Shown: positions 22,383 to 28,404 of the stretch, piece after piece | Position numbering within the stretch: position 1 is the first letter of the stretch | How the letters are laid out: the number at the start of each line of letters is the position of its first letter | From: Bacillota bacterium | GTDB lineage: Bacteria; Bacillota; Sulfobacillia; JACIYH01 | Length of the DNA stretch: 64,000 nt | Reading direction: 5' to 3' | Assembly: GCA_030019365.1 (NCBI GenBank) | Contig: JASEFA010000002.1 | Coordinates: forward strand, 1 to 64,000 | Program-made: the position numbers and the translations under genes | Notes under the pieces: generated by a model | The model's input: the letters and a program-made list of their open reading frames with translations, nothing else | Told to the model about the DNA's origin: nothing | Database searches by the model: none

Positions 22383-23798
22383 TCACTCCCGCCGTCTGGG
22401 CAGAGGGCTCCCTGCCGTGCCCGAAGCGGCCCGCTCCGCCATGCGGCGGGACATCTCCCTCGCCCGCCGGGCCACCTCCCGTTCGTCCGGCAGCCCCACC
22501 AGGTGGCCGTCCTCCACCACCACGCGGCCGTTCACGATCACCATGTCCACCGTACCGGGTCCCGTGGTGACCAGCGCAGTCACCGGGTCCCCGGCAGTAC
22601 CGGCGAACTCCAGCCGGCCCAGGTCGATCAACACCAGGTCAGCGGCCATACCAGGGGCCAGGTACCCGATCTCGTGCCGGGCCAGAACCGCCGCCCCGCC
22701 CGCCGTGGCCAGGTAAAGCACCTCTTCGGCGGAGAGACCCCGCTCACCCAGGGCCAGCTTCTGCAGGAGGTAGGCCACCCTCACCTCCCCCCACATGTGG
22801 GAGCTGTCGTTGCTGGCGCTGCCGTCCACCGCCAGCCCCACCCGCGCCCCGGCGGCGAGCAGGTCGCGCACCCGGCACACCCCGGAGGAAAGCTTCATGT
22901 TGGACGCAGGACAGTGGGCCACCCCGGTGCGGGTCTCACCCAGGAGGCGGACCTCGCCATCGTCCAGGTGAATGGCGTGGGCGAACCAGACGTCCCGACC
23001 CAGCCACCCCAACTGCTCCAGGTAGGCCACCGGCCGGCATCCGAACTTCTCCAGGCAGAAGCGCTCCTCGTCCCTGGTCTCCGCCAGGTGGGTGTGCAGG
23101 AGAACCCCCCGGGAGCGGGCCAGCTCCGCCGTCTCCTTCATCAGGCGGGGAGTGACGGAAAAGGGCGAACAGGGCGCCAGGGCCAGGCGGCACATGGCAT
23201 AGGGGGCGGGATCGTGGTAACGGTCGAGCAGGCGCTCGCAGTCGGCCAGGATGGCGTCCTCGTCCTGGGCCACCTCGTCGGGGGGCAGACCCCCCTGGCT
23301 GCGCCCCAGGGACATGCTCCCCCGGGTGGGATGGAACCGTATGCCCAGCTGCCGGGCGGCCGCGATTTCGGCCTCGATGAACCCCTCTGGCCGATCCCGG
23401 GGAAAGACGTAGTGATGGTCGGTGGACGTGGTGCATCCGCTCTTCAGCAGCTCCCCCAGCCCCACCAGGGCGCCCAGATACACGGCTTCCGGCGTGATCC
23501 CCCGCCATATCTCGTACAGGGCGAGCAGCCAGGGGAAGAGGGGGATGTCCTGCACGGCCGGGATGGCCCGGGTGAGGGTCTGGTAGAGATGATGGTGCGT
23601 GTTCACGAACCCGGGGAACACCGCCCACCCGGAGGCATCGATGACCCGGTCCACGGTCTCCCCTTCCCCGGCGCCAGGACCGAGGGCAGCAATCCGGCAG
23701 CCGTCGATGAGGACATTCCCGCCCCGGACACGCTCCCGGAGGGGGTTCATGGTCACTATCCAGTCCGCATTCCTGATCAACGTCCGCATGGGTCTCAT
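22383..23798 (-). CDS. 8-oxoguanine deaminase-type aminohydrolase
   Basis: A 471-residue TRZ/ATZ-type amidohydrolase. Zinc ligands are NTHHHLYQ (His68/70), LLHTHLAET and the distal GLAVDGSASND; CTTSTDHHYVFP, TRGSMSLGRSQGGLPPD and LAPCSPFSVT match 8-oxoguanine deaminases and the related hydroxyatrazine hydrolases. The reaction would be hydrolytic removal of an exocyclic amine from a purine or triazine. The start overlaps the upstream gene by 4 bases (ATGA). It lies at the end of an operon with SsnA- and hydantoinase-type genes, fitting purine salvage or catabolism. Confidence 0.88.
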   Translation of the reverse strand: MRPMRTLIRNADWIVTMNPLRERVRGGNVLIDGCRIAALGPGAGEGETVDRVIDASGWAVFPGFVNTHHHLYQTLTRAIPAVQDIPLFPWLLALYEIWRGITPEAVYLGALVGLGELLKSGCTTSTDHHYVFPRDRPEGFIEAEIAAARQLGIRFHPTRGSMSLGRSQGGLPPDEVAQDEDAILADCERLLDRYHDPAPYAMCRLALAPCSPFSVTPRLMKETAELARSRGVLLHTHLAETRDEERFCLEKFGCRPVAYLEQLGWLGRDVWFAHAIHLDDGEVRLLGETRTGVAHCPASNMKLSSGVCRVRDLLAAGARVGLAVDGSASNDSSHMWGEVRVAYLLQKLALGERGLSAEEVLYLATAGGAAVLARHEIGYLAPGMAADLVLIDLGRLEFAGTAGDPVTALVTTGPGTVDMVIVNGRVVVEDGHLVGLPDEREVARRAREMSRRMAERAASGTAGSPLPRRRE

Positions 23799-24976
23799 TC
23801 CCGCATGGCATGAATGTCCAGGGCCCGGTAGGCGGCGACCAGGTTGGCCGGCGAGACCCCTTCCGGGACCAGACCCGAGGAGGTACCGACCACCAGCCCT
23901 CCGTCCCGGGCGGCCCGGGCCAACCGCATCGCTTCCCGCACCACCGCCTCCGGGGTGCCGCGGCTGAGCAGGTCTACCGACAGGCCTCCCAGCAGCCCCA
24001 GTCGGCCCCGCCACATCCCCACCAGCCGGGCGACGTCCATCCCGGCTTCCGGTTCCAGGGAGTGCAGGCCGTGGAAGCCCGCCGCCGCGATGTCGGCCAG
24101 CAATGGTGCTACCGCCCCGTCGCTGTGGAAGACCAGGAGGGGGATGTCTCCCCTGGCGGTGCGGGCAGTGCGGCAACGGGCGGCCACCTCCGCCCAGAGC
24201 GGCCGGAGCCGATGCCGGACGACCCGGGGAGAAAGCAGCAGGCCCCCGGTGTATGCCAGGTCCTCCCCCATCACGATGCCGTCGGCACCCGCCGCCAGGG
24301 CCTGCGCCACCTGGCCGAGCACCCGGTCAAGCTGCACGAGGAGCAACGTGTCCGCATCCCCCAACCACGAGTCCGCATCCTCCCACCACGAGTCCGCATC
24401 CTCCCACCACGAGTCCGCATCCCCCAGTCCCGAGCCGACATGCCCCGACGAGGAGCCCGCCTCACCCAGTTCCGAGCCGGCGTCCCCCAACCCAGAGTCA
24501 CTCCCATCGCTCCGCGGGCGGCGGTGCGCCCCGGTCAGGAGAAGCAAGGCCTGCGACCAGCCCAGCAGGCCCGCCAGGCCCTGCCAGGGCCCATCCACCA
24601 CCGCCCATACGAAGAGATCACGCCCCGCCCAATGAGCAATCTCCTGGATCCAGGACGAGTGGGGCGCCGGCTCAACGGGCGCGATCAGGGGTGGGCTGTC
24701 GCCGGCGGCAGACCCCGCCGGCGGCCACGCAGCCGCTACCGCCCGCGGACCTGGCGGCGGGAGCGATGGGACCGGCACGCCCACCATGTCCGCACCCAGG
24801 AGGCGCAGGGCCTCCTCTTCCGCCTGCCAGCGGCCGGGCCCGCCGGCAGGGAGAGGACGTGCGTGCCCTCCCAGCAGGGCCCGGACCAGCACTCCCGCCA
24901 TCCGGAACTCCCCCCGGGGCACGCGATCGGGCGGCCGGCCCTCAAGGGCCTCCCGCACCCGCCGGTAACCGGTCAT
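23795..24976 (-). CDS. Uroporphyrinogen decarboxylase-like protein with heptad insert
   Basis: A 393-residue URO-D superfamily protein, closer to corrinoid methyltransferases (MtaA/CmuA type) than to HemE: it keeps VFHSDGAVAPLL, GLHSLEPEAGMDV and GTSSGLVPEGVSP, and HemE neighbours are absent. Between residues ~160 and 208 it carries seven tandem seven-residue units (DSGLGDA, GSELGEA, GSSSGHV, GSGLGDA, DSWWEDA twice, DSWLGDA), apparently in a surface loop. Both ends overlap neighbours by 4 bases. The substrate is unknown; the operon suggests methyl or one-carbon handling beside purine degradation. Confidence 0.8.
   Translation of the reverse strand: MTGYRRVREALEGRPPDRVPRGEFRMAGVLVRALLGGHARPLPAGGPGRWQAEEEALRLLGADMVGVPVPSLPPPGPRAVAAAWPPAGSAAGDSPPLIAPVEPAPHSSWIQEIAHWAGRDLFVWAVVDGPWQGLAGLLGWSQALLLLTGAHRRPRSDGSDSGLGDAGSELGEAGSSSGHVGSGLGDADSWWEDADSWWEDADSWLGDADTLLLVQLDRVLGQVAQALAAGADGIVMGEDLAYTGGLLLSPRVVRHRLRPLWAEVAARCRTARTARGDIPLLVFHSDGAVAPLLADIAAAGFHGLHSLEPEAGMDVARLVGMWRGRLGLLGGLSVDLLSRGTPEAVVREAMRLARAARDGGLVVGTSSGLVPEGVSPANLVAAYRALDIHAMRE
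24353..24499 (-). repeat. 21-bp tandem array inside URO-D-like gene
   Basis: Seven in-frame units of 21 bp. The three units nearest the gene's 3' side share the plus-strand core GAGTCCGCATCCTCCCACCA with almost no change, while the other four are diverged, which points to recent expansion at one end of the array. Confidence 0.9.
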
Positions 24977-25992
24977 TCCCTCCCGGCCAGCATCTCTCGG
25001 GCCCGCCACAGCTCGTCACCTTCCGGAGAAAGAATGGGGACCCGCGCCCCTTCCTTGAGCAGCCAGTTTCCTTCCGGCACCACACGCCCGACCACCGCCG
25101 CCCGGATACCCGCCCCGCCCAGAGCACCCAGCAGCGGCCCCGGGTCGGGCACTGCCACCAGGAGTGAACCGCTGGAAACCAGACGCAGGGGGTCCACCGA
25201 CAGAGCCCGGCAGATGGCATCCACCTCGGGCGGGACGGGGACCTCCTCGGCCCGGATTTCCACACCCAGCCCGGCGGCGTATGCCATTTCCCAGGCCGCT
25301 CCCAGAACGCCACCCTCGGTCACGTCGTGCATGGCGGTAGCCCCGCACCCCACGGCCACCTTCGCCTCGGGCAAAACGCTCAATGAGTCAAACAGGGACC
25401 GCGCCCGGTCGATGACATCCGCCGGGACCAGAGCGGACAGCCGGGCGGGGAAATCCACAGCCAGTACGGCAGCCCCTTCGATCCCCGCCCCCTTGGTGAG
25501 CACCAGGGCATCGCCCGCCTGCGGCCCCTCGGGCAACCGGCAACCGGGCCAGGGCTGCCCCAGGGCGGCAACACATACAAGGGGCAAGGGGAGGCCGGGC
25601 ACCAGCTCCGTGTGCCCCCCGGCGATGGCCACCTTCAACTTCCGGCAGGCGGCGTCAGCCTCGGCCATGAACCGGGCCACGTACTCTTCTCCCAGTTCGA
25701 GGGGAACCAGCAGGGTGATGCCCACGGCCACCGGCTCGGCCCCGGCAGCGGCCAGGTCGTTGCACGCCACGTAGATGCATAGCTCGCCCGTGCGGGTGCT
25801 GCTGCCGGTGATGGGATCCACCGAAAAGACACACATCCCGCCCCCCAGCCGCAGGACGGCGGCATCCACACCGATGCCCGCACCCCGGATGACCTCCGGC
25901 CGCCGGGCGCCCTGATGGGCGAGCACCATCTTCTCCAGGATCACCGGAGGGAGCTTACCCCCCGGCGCCCTCGCTGTTTTCTGCCTTTCCAC
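24973..25992 (-). CDS. AIR synthase-like (HypE/PurM/ThiL superfamily) protein
   Basis: A 339-residue ATP-binding protein of the PurM superfamily with N-terminal GKLPPVILEKMVL and GIGVDAAVLRL, the central GDALVLTKGAGIEGAA and MHDVTEGGVLGAAWE, most like stand-alone AIR-synthase-related proteins near HypE. It should phosphorylate or dehydrate a carboxamide or formamide-type substrate with ATP, but the substrate is unknown. No hydrogenase or purine-synthesis genes are near. GTG at 25992 has GGAGG nine bases upstream; it overlaps the URO-D-like gene by 4 bases. Confidence 0.82.
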   Translation of the reverse strand: MERQKTARAPGGKLPPVILEKMVLAHQGARRPEVIRGAGIGVDAAVLRLGGGMCVFSVDPITGSSTRTGELCIYVACNDLAAAGAEPVAVGITLLVPLELGEEYVARFMAEADAACRKLKVAIAGGHTELVPGLPLPLVCVAALGQPWPGCRLPEGPQAGDALVLTKGAGIEGAAVLAVDFPARLSALVPADVIDRARSLFDSLSVLPEAKVAVGCGATAMHDVTEGGVLGAAWEMAYAAGLGVEIRAEEVPVPPEVDAICRALSVDPLRLVSSGSLLVAVPDPGPLLGALGGAGIRAAVVGRVVPEGNWLLKEGARVPILSPEGDELWRAREMLAGRE

Positions 25993-25996
25993 GAAA

Positions 25997-27061
25997 TCAG
26001 CCTCCGGATCTAGCGGTGATGAGGCCCAGGAGAAGCCTTCCCGCCTCCCGGCAGTTACGGGCCAGCAAATCCAGGGTGGAAGGGTCAGCCCCGTCCACAT
26101 GGACGCCCGCCACTCCCACCACCGGCGAGCACGTCACCCGCGCCAGCTCGTCGGCCAGGGGACGGATCACCTCTTCCTCCTTGTGGGCCGGCAGGTTGAT
26201 CACCGAGGAGGTGCAGCTCGACCTCTCCGGGTCGGCCAGGCTGGGTCGCGGCACGCTCACCACCACGGTGCCCACGTGGGTGCGGTCGCCCCCGAACAGC
26301 CCCACCACGTAGCCGTCGTCGGTGGCCCAGGCCCGGGCCTGCACCCGCAGGTGCCCTTCACCCGCCCGCGCCTCCCACTCCCGCAGGCGCCCCTCCGCCG
26401 CCCCCGCCTCGCGCTCCCACCATCCGCCCCCGCTCGTGCCTGCTTCGTGCTGCGGCCGGGCGGCAGCCTCCTCGCGCTGCTCCGCTTCACCCTGGCCTTC
26501 CCAGCGCGGGCTCAACCGGTGGGATATACCCAGGTGATCCAGGATCCGTGCCACGGTATGGTCGACCAGGTCGGCCGGGGAGGCAGGATGGCAGTAAAAG
26601 GCGGGCATGGGGGGAAGGACCACCACTCCCAGTCGCGCCAGCCGCAACAGGTTCCCCAGGTGAACGGCACTGAGCGGGGTCTCCCGGGGAACCACGATGA
26701 GCCGCCGCCGCTCCTTCAGGCACACGTCGGCCGCCCGGACGATGAGATCGGCGGAGTAGCCGTGGGCGATGGCCGCCGCCGTCTTCATGCTGCAGGGGGC
26801 GATGACCATCCCGTCTACGGGGAAGCTTCCACTCGCCACCGGCGCGCCCAGGTCGTCGGGGCTGTGGGTATGGGTGGCCATCCCCCTCAGCCCGTCAGGG
26901 GGAAGCCCCGTCTCCAGGCGCACGGTCTCCCATCCCCACCGGCTGACGATGAGGTGGGTTTCCCTTCCCGCCTCCCGCAGGACTTCCAGGAGGCGGACGC
27001 CGTACACCGCCCCCGAAGCTCCCGTGATGGCCACTATGACCCGCGCCATCTCTGCCACCAT
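25997..27061 (-). CDS. UbiX flavin prenyltransferase fused to LpdD-like domain
   Basis: A 354-residue two-domain protein. Residues ~5-185 are UbiX-like: IVAITGASGAVYGVRLLE, VIAPCSMKTAAAIAHGYS, LIVVPRETPLSAVHL and GVVVLPPMPAFY. UbiX makes prenylated FMN, the cofactor of UbiD decarboxylases. Residues ~244-348 (LFGGDRTHVGTVVVSVPRPS, then SVINLPAHKEEEV) resemble LpdD, a small protein proposed as a prenyl-FMN chaperone, normally separate. The domains are joined by a repetitive charged linker (~186-243). No UbiD is in the window. The start shares one base with the ssnA-like stop. Confidence 0.82.
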   Translation of the reverse strand: MVAEMARVIVAITGASGAVYGVRLLEVLREAGRETHLIVSRWGWETVRLETGLPPDGLRGMATHTHSPDDLGAPVASGSFPVDGMVIAPCSMKTAAAIAHGYSADLIVRAADVCLKERRRLIVVPRETPLSAVHLGNLLRLARLGVVVLPPMPAFYCHPASPADLVDHTVARILDHLGISHRLSPRWEGQGEAEQREEAAARPQHEAGTSGGGWWEREAGAAEGRLREWEARAGEGHLRVQARAWATDDGYVVGLFGGDRTHVGTVVVSVPRPSLADPERSSCTSSVINLPAHKEEEVIRPLADELARVTCSPVVGVAGVHVDGADPSTLDLLARNCREAGRLLLGLITARSGG

Positions 27062-28404
27062 CAGTACCGCTGCCAGAGGGCCCGGGCCCGTTCCCGCGAC
27101 CGGGCCAGGATGGCCTCTTCATCCACGGCCTGGAACTCACCACCGCGCACGAGGATGCGCCCCCCCACCATCACGGTGTCCACGGCCGACCCCGGCACCC
27201 CGTATGTGAGGTGACCCATGTAGTTGGTCTCGTCCAGGGGAGTGAAGGGCCGGTAATCCACCAGGATGATGTCGGCGTATCCTCCTTCCGTGATCCGTCC
27301 CAGGGGACGGTCCCAGTACCGGGCCGCCAGGCGGGCACTGTTCACCCAGGTCACTCGCCTGAGCTCTTCGCCCCCCATCACGCGGGGATCCTCCCGGTCC
27401 AGGCGGGCGACCATGGCGGCGAGGTTCATCTCCCGCCACAGGTCGAGGAAGCCATCGCCGCCCAGCACCACGTTGATCCCGGCCTCCAGCAGCGCGGGGA
27501 CGGGCGACGTACCCACGGCGTTGTTCATGTTCGACTGGGGGTTGTGGGCCACCGTGCATCCCCTCTCCCGCAGGGTGGCGATCTCCTCTTCGCCCACCAG
27601 GACGCAGTGAGCCGCGATGCTATTCTCCCCCAGCACCCCCGCTTCCGCCAGGCGCCGCACGGGATGCTTCCCGAACTGGCGCCGCGACTCCTCTACGTCG
27701 GCCTCCCCCTCCGCCACATGGACGTGAAACCCGGCCCCCAGACTGTTACCCATCGCCGCGGCCATGTGCAGGGTCTCCTCGCCCACCGTGAAGGAAGCGT
27801 GCAGCCCGAAGGCTGCTCTGAGGAGCGGTCCACCTTCCTTCCGGCACCGCTCGACGAAGCGGCAGTTCTCCTCCAGCCCCCGGCGCGCCACGTCCGGGCC
27901 GTCCCGGTCCGACACCTCGTAGCACAGGCAGCCCCGCACCCCCAGGTCGGTGAAGGCACGTGCCACCTGGTCCAGGCTTCCCGGGCAGACGCGGGGGCTG
28001 GCATGGTGATCGAAGAGCGTGGTGACCCCGTGCCGGACGGCCTCCAGCAGCCCGGCCAGGGACTGGTAGTAGTTGTCTTCCGGCGTCAGGGCCTTGTCCA
28101 GCCGCCACCACAGCCGCTCCAGGATCTGGCGAAAGCTCCCCGCCGGCTCCCCCCGGCCGGGAATGCCGCGCGCCCACTGCCCGTACAGGTGGGTGTGCCC
28201 CGTCACCAGCCCGGGCAGGATGAGCATCCCGCCCGCATCGACGAAGGGCACCCCCGGGTGGCGGACCCGCATCTCGGCCGTGGCACCGACCTCTTTCACC
28301 ATTTCTCCTTCCACCAGGACCGCCCCGTCGGGGAAGAACCGGTTGCGTTCCTCCATGGTGATGAGGATGCCGTTGCCCACCAGCGTCCTCGTTTCCGTCC
28401 CCAC
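27061..28404 (-). CDS. ssnA: SsnA-family aminohydrolase
   Basis: A 447-residue amidohydrolase resembling E. coli SsnA: TGHTHLYGQWARGIPG (His70/72), FDHHASPRVCPGSLDQ, FHVHVAEGEADVEE, AHNPQSNMNNAVG, LGGDGF and the C-terminal YMGHLTYGVPGSAVD. SsnA proteins occur in purine-degradation clusters with dihydropyrimidinase-like HyuA and molybdenum hydroxylases and are presumed purine deaminases. Here it follows a hydantoinase and precedes the UbiX fusion, but no xanthine dehydrogenase is seen in the window. GTG start at 28404. Confidence 0.86.
   Translation of the reverse strand: MGTETRTLVGNGILITMEERNRFFPDGAVLVEGEMVKEVGATAEMRVRHPGVPFVDAGGMLILPGLVTGHTHLYGQWARGIPGRGEPAGSFRQILERLWWRLDKALTPEDNYYQSLAGLLEAVRHGVTTLFDHHASPRVCPGSLDQVARAFTDLGVRGCLCYEVSDRDGPDVARRGLEENCRFVERCRKEGGPLLRAAFGLHASFTVGEETLHMAAAMGNSLGAGFHVHVAEGEADVEESRRQFGKHPVRRLAEAGVLGENSIAAHCVLVGEEEIATLRERGCTVAHNPQSNMNNAVGTSPVPALLEAGINVVLGGDGFLDLWREMNLAAMVARLDREDPRVMGGEELRRVTWVNSARLAARYWDRPLGRITEGGYADIILVDYRPFTPLDETNYMGHLTYGVPGSAVDTVMVGGRILVRGGEFQAVDEEAILARSRERARALWQRY

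Follow-up and report, generated by a model that had tools for sequence, protein, structure and literature searches.

Prenylated FMN (prFMN) is an unusual cofactor derived from vitamin B2. Many UbiD enzymes, including UbiD of E. coli, are hard to obtain in active form, and the acquisition of this air-sensitive cofactor by UbiD is an open practical problem. A related system has been described in Lactobacillus plantarum, in which UbiX makes the reduced cofactor prFMNH2, LpdD binds prFMN only in its reduced form, and the LpdD-prFMNH2 complex activates apo-UbiD (PMC10865409). Another helper of UbiD activation is the prFMN maturase PhdC/YclD; unlike LpdD, it is a flavin-reductase-fold enzyme that oxidises prFMN, and it is unrelated to the LpdD fold (PMC13040415). 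A third related system is the late futalosine pathway formed by MqnL, MqnM and MqnP, in which MqnM is the UbiX (PMC4746308).

In the DNA analysed here, a stretch of 64,000 nucleotides from an uncultured bacterium to which we refer as the window, UbiX and an LpdD-family domain are encoded together in a single chain. A published description of such a fusion was not found in the literature searched, whose journal coverage was partial.

The fusion gene and its two domains

The coordinates of the fusion gene, its parts and its immediate neighbours are presented in Table 1. The gene can be read through all of its 354 codons without a stop or a frameshift, and its product consists of an N-terminal UbiX domain, a linker of 46 residues and a C-terminal LpdD-family domain. 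The three genomes of the genus (the window genome, G001 and G002) all have this architecture, and it also occurs in G037, which belongs to a different family of the same class. Across the class, an LpdD domain was detected in 16 of 154 genomes, and in four of these it is part of a UbiX fusion. A match from Lentisphaerae was considered doubtful, its reading frame not being clean, and was left out.

Table 1. Features of the fusion gene and its surroundings, with positions in the window.
Feature	Position	Strand	Remarks
UbiX-LpdD fusion gene, 354 aa	25997..27061	-	one open frame; same architecture in G001, G002, G037
UbiX flavin prenyltransferase domain, residues 7-187	26501..27043	-	TIGR00421; eight active-site positions
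Linker, residues 188-233	26363..26500	-	26% identical to G001; dN/dS about 0.6
LpdD-family prFMNH2 chaperone domain (predicted), residues 234-354	26000..26362	-	PF21758, LpdD profile match, fold
36-bp tandem repeat, 2.1 copies	26344-26418		Tandem Repeats Finder score 101
AIRS-like (HypE/SelD-related) gene	24973..25992	-	PF00586, PF02769; HypE 2z1e E 5e-15
SsnA-type aminohydrolase, directly upstream	27061..28404	-	TIGR03314 471 bits; stop codon overlaps the ATG of the fusion

The N-terminal domain matches the UbiX profile TIGR00421 over its whole length (249 bits, cut-off 108.9; profile positions 1-181 of 181), and its best solved relative is UbiX of E. coli O157 (1sbz). In the alignment with P. 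aeruginosa UbiX (3zqu/4zaf), all eight active-site positions that were checked are identical: residues S16, E50, R109, K116, R126, E127, Y156 and R172 of the fusion correspond to what we take to be S15, E49, R122, K129, R139, E140, Y169 and R185 of the Pseudomonas enzyme. Three of the latter (E49, E140 and Y169) are also given in PMC6541611. The position concerned with specificity for DMAP or DMAPP (F181) is occupied by H168, just as it is occupied by His in the O157 enzyme, which accepts both DMAP and DMAPP (PMC6541611). Judged from these comparisons, the domain is an intact flavin prenyltransferase, and synthesis of prFMNH2 is predicted for it. It resembles the known UbiX proteins in the whole domain and in the active site, and differs from them in the C-terminal extension that carries the second domain.

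The C-terminal domain matches PF21758 (PAC_bac) with 91.2 bits (cut-off 27) over residues 235-344. A profile constructed from 11 homologous domains matches the LpdD structures 8po5, 8pzh and 8p4w with E values of 6e-12 to 7e-12, and the next match after the LpdD structures has an E value of 0.24. When the domain was modelled alone (pLDDT 63, a modest confidence), LpdD was the top family in both structure comparisons, with Z values of 7.0-7.8 over 98-110 residues; in the model of the whole fusion the C-terminal half had a pLDDT under 50, and this model was set aside in favour of the better one of the isolated domain. A first-pass annotation of this DNA, made from the sequence alone, had described UbiX and an LpdD-like domain, normally separate proteins, as joined in one chain, and had named the profile comparison with LpdD as the test that could overturn this identification and a structural model as a further check. 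The matches to TIGR00421 and PF21758, the presence of the same chain in four genomes, the profile match at E 6e-12 and the PDB matches of the model all bear it out.

With LpdD of L. plantarum (8po5, 8pzo, 8pzh, 8p4w; PMC10865409) the domain shares its profile, its fold and both histidines of the metal/prFMN-binding pair, H35 and H61 of LpdD being represented by H262 and H293. The two differ in that LpdD stands alone, whereas the domain described here is tethered to UbiX and carries E295, a possible but different ligand, in place of the metal ligand D63. In LpdD the metal is not essential and H35 matters for binding, the H35A variant showing no prFMNH2 binding in vitro (PMC10865409).

Comparison of the window gene with that of G001 gave a dN/dS of about 0.2 for the UbiX part (0.176/0.852), about 0.2 for the LpdD part (0.144/0.719) and about 0.64 for the linker. 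By this measure, purifying selection acts on both domains, and the linker is not conserved. The linker had been described in the first-pass annotation as charged and repetitive. This is explained by the 36-bp tandem repeat, which runs from the last part of the linker into the first part of the LpdD domain, but the feature is not shared by the relatives. The linkers of the four fusions are 46 (window), 45, 58 and 38 residues long, and those of the relatives (38-58 residues) are unrelated in sequence, so that the charged repeat is peculiar to the window gene. It was also considered whether translation could start again inside the linker and yield LpdD as a separate protein. This was rejected, because the linkers of the window gene and of G001 contain no in-frame start codon; as GTG codons are present in the linkers of G002 and G037, the rejection holds for the window gene and G001 only.

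The presumed client and the origin of the fusion

The fusion is the one UbiX over the cut-off in the window genome. The absence of UbiD beside the gene, pointed out in the first-pass annotation, was confirmed, and a search of the whole genome found exactly one UbiD, located on another contig (C7, L026:9065-10507). It matches TIGR03701, the profile of the menaquinone (vitamin K) biosynthesis decarboxylase, with 611 bits (cut-off 495.9). The annotation had left the client open; given that the sole UbiX is the fusion and the sole UbiD is of the MqnL type, the client is most likely this decarboxylase.

In region L026:9065-14125 (C7), the gene of the MqnL-type UbiD is followed by those of an MqnP-like UbiA prenyltransferase and of an NMT1/SsuA-type ABC importer. 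The same UbiD-UbiA-importer block is found in G001 and G002 (L039, L040), with identities of 76-89%. MqnA/D (PF02621) and full MqnE are absent from all three genomes of the genus, full MqnC was not found in the window genome, and MenB is missing from the genus genomes that bear the block; the missing early menaquinone genes are counted over three draft genomes with an estimated completeness of 98-99%, and such assemblies may lack genes. Since MqnA/D, MqnE and full MqnC are missing, we call the UbiD MqnL-type, and do not treat it as a proven member of a complete pathway. The importer, UbiD and UbiA may serve to import a soluble menaquinone precursor, e.g. 1,4-dihydroxy-6-naphthoate, so that only the final part of the synthesis would be carried out. 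Additionally, a truncated MqnC/CofH-type radical SAM protein, represented by its C-terminal 250 residues, is encoded directly after a transposase gene (C1, L076:6434-8932), and may be what is left of a futalosine pathway that was lost. In comparison with MqnL-MqnM-MqnP (PMC4746308), the presumed client is likewise MqnL-type and its neighbour is an MqnP-like UbiA, whereas the UbiX that replaces MqnM is fused and encoded elsewhere, and the genus is without the early pathway genes.

Gene sets with the same components were found in two further genomes. In G178 (L072), UbiX, LpdD and an MqnL-type UbiD are encoded by three separate genes in a row, the UbiD being 60% identical to that of the window genome; in G014 (L031), adjacent UbiX and LpdD genes are divergent from a UbiD-UbiA block. 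Both sets match the window genome in their components and in the MqnL-type UbiD, but there the genes are separate, whereas in the window genome they are fused and lie far from ubiD. The likeliest origin of the fusion is therefore the joining of two adjacent genes in a set encoding UbiX, LpdD and UbiD. The UbiX-LpdD gene set would then most likely have parted from ubiD after the fusion, in the genus of the window.

Downstream of the fusion of G037 lie, in the same orientation, genes for dihydroorotate-dehydrogenase-like proteins, an aldehyde ferredoxin oxidoreductase, UbiD, a DUF6282 protein and a TRAP-type transporter. As this UbiD scores 275 bits, below the MqnL cut-off, the architecture occurs with more than one type of UbiD. 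The LpdD halves of the UbiX fusions group in a single clade of the LpdD tree (100/98), but the tree of the UbiX halves is unresolved, and a single origin of the fusion is therefore likely, not proven.

Other LpdD fusions and the co-occurrence of LpdD with UbiD

LpdD was also found fused to other enzymes. In G026 (L037:6590-7450), G055 (L038:7446-8342) and G526 (L106), it is joined to a CTP-dependent riboflavin kinase domain (PF01982, 70 and 63 bits in two of the cases; the case of G526 comes from tblastn), whose solved relative is the riboflavin kinase of M. jannaschii (E 7e-10). The CTP-dependent riboflavin kinase is an FMN maker of the archaeal type, here found in bacteria. The gene of G026 directly follows UbiX. 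In G407 (L075:5182-6075, minus strand), the LpdD domain is followed in one chain by a type-I isopentenyl-diphosphate isomerase (TIGR02150, 113 bits, cut-off 105.8; PRK03759, 144, cut-off 127); this gene is located directly after UbiX, and a UbiD lies about 1.5 kb upstream of UbiX. It is important to mention that the isomerase fusion was seen in one draft genome only and has yet to be confirmed. Possible LpdD fusions in G198 and G043 were rejected, since visual inspection of the long open frames around LpdD suggested GC-rich DNA read out of frame.

The kinase-fused domains form a clade of their own in the LpdD tree (100/94), and the isomerase-fused domain groups elsewhere, with stand-alone LpdD (98/85). 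Together with the position of the UbiX-fused domains, these placements indicate that LpdD was joined separately to UbiX and to suppliers of both prFMN ingredients, namely riboflavin kinase for FMN and isopentenyl-diphosphate isomerase for DMAPP. The kinase and isomerase fusions point to an LpdD that is close to the cofactor supply. A more general, tentative idea, which we put forward with some doubt, is that LpdD might be a modular docking and carrier hub that evolution has tethered separately to the makers of FMN, DMAPP and prFMN, so that the unstable cofactor would be built and would reach apo-UbiD unreleased.

LpdD and UbiD tend to occur together. Among 61 relatives, the LpdD domain is present in 13, all of which have UbiD, and UbiD is present in 28 of the 61 (Fisher p 6e-6, kinship ignored). 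The larger sample of 398 genomes of the phylum includes 84 with the LpdD domain, spread over 41 families; 83 of the 84 have UbiD, which is present in 173 of the 398 (p 2e-35, kinship ignored). Of the sampled phylum genomes that have UbiD, about half carry LpdD (83/173). LpdD was previously described as 'only rarely present alongside UbiD' (PMC10865409). By our counts, it appears to be commoner among UbiD-bearing genomes, at least those of this phylum, than this remark implies and is probably not rare, although the remark may have referred to gene adjacency; the Pfam name hides the family as proteasome-chaperone-like. Four genomes (G055, G024, G017 and G005) were seen to have UbiD and no UbiX over the cut-off, G024 being assembled as one contig.

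Proposed function and alternative explanations

We consider it fairly probable that the fusion is a single-chain prFMN supply protein, composed of a maker and a tethered carrier, that loads apo-MqnL. The N-terminal domain would join FMNH2 to a dimethylallyl group, giving prFMNH2; the LpdD domain, held on a flexible linker, would bind this oxygen-sensitive product and deliver it to an apo-UbiD encoded elsewhere, here MqnL. Through the tether, the carrier would be locally more concentrated around the active site of UbiX, and prFMNH2 could be shielded from one-electron oxidation. We infer catalysis, the binding of prFMNH2, its handover along the tether and the role of MqnL as client from the comparisons described above, in which all assignments are made by sequence. 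UbiX forms dodecamers and LpdD is a dimer, so that several carrier pairs could sit on one particle.

Several observations were counted against the loading of MqnL: the UbiD gene lies on another contig, the constant neighbour of the fusion in the genus is the AIRS-like gene, D63 is replaced by Glu, and the missing early menaquinone genes leave the pathway of MqnL incomplete on paper. If the fusion does combine a maker with a carrier, such a natural chain might be used to load UbiD enzymes that are difficult to activate, and a single cut in the linker would let direct handover be tested.

Alternatively, the fusion may merely fix the ratio and the co-location of UbiX and LpdD, each of which would work by diffusion, with no direct handover. 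This would be in agreement with the function of LpdD and UbiX as separate proteins in L. plantarum (PMC10865409), and with a linker that is unconserved. The joining of LpdD to prFMN-supply enzymes on three separate occasions, however, suggests that closeness is useful, though not how, and we regard co-location alone as an unlikely explanation, if one to be taken seriously.

The C-terminal domain could also be an assembly or scaffolding domain and not a carrier of prFMN, as its Pfam name hints. PF21758 is named after the proteasome assembling chaperones, the fold is similar to Pba3/Pba4 and PAC3, and the change of D63 to Glu would fit such a role. In the structure comparisons, however, the yeast proteasome chaperone 2z5c reached a Z of 5.9 and the human chaperones were also placed below LpdD. 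LpdD structures are the best matches by both sequence and fold, and the domain accompanies UbiD in nearly all of the phylum genomes that carry it. Despite its name, PF21758 is the LpdD family, and a scaffolding role seems very improbable.

According to another explanation, raised as a possibility in the first-pass annotation, the fusion serves a neighbouring enzyme of the operon (AIRS-like, URO-D-like or an amidohydrolase) and not UbiD. In the window, the fusion is surrounded by hydantoinase-, 8-oxoguanine-deaminase- and URO-D-like genes. The AIRS-like gene adjoins it throughout the genus (three genomes), and the likely GTG start of this gene, at 25992, is located 4 bases after the stop codon of the fusion; the two are probably translationally coupled. 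HypE and SelD are the solved relatives of the AIRS-like protein, which scores below every equivalog cut-off and for which a kinase-like role is conceivable. G001 keeps the surroundings seen in the window, but in G002 the amidohydrolases are missing from beside the fusion and the AIRS-like gene, and the fusion of G037 has no AIRS gene as a neighbour. Moreover, every fusion-bearing genome has UbiD, and we know of no prFMN enzymes outside the UbiD family. A client among the operon members is thus hardly to be expected, and we prefer the reading in which the fusion supplies UbiD.

An assembly or sequencing error that joined two genes might be feared in a draft genome of multiple contigs, but an identical architecture in four separately assembled genomes, with differing linkers and no stops, makes such an artefact practically negligible.

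The URO-D-like open reading frame of the window (23795-25009) contains a 21-bp tandem repeat of about 5 copies (24342-24446), which encodes an insert rich in Ser, Asp and Trp.
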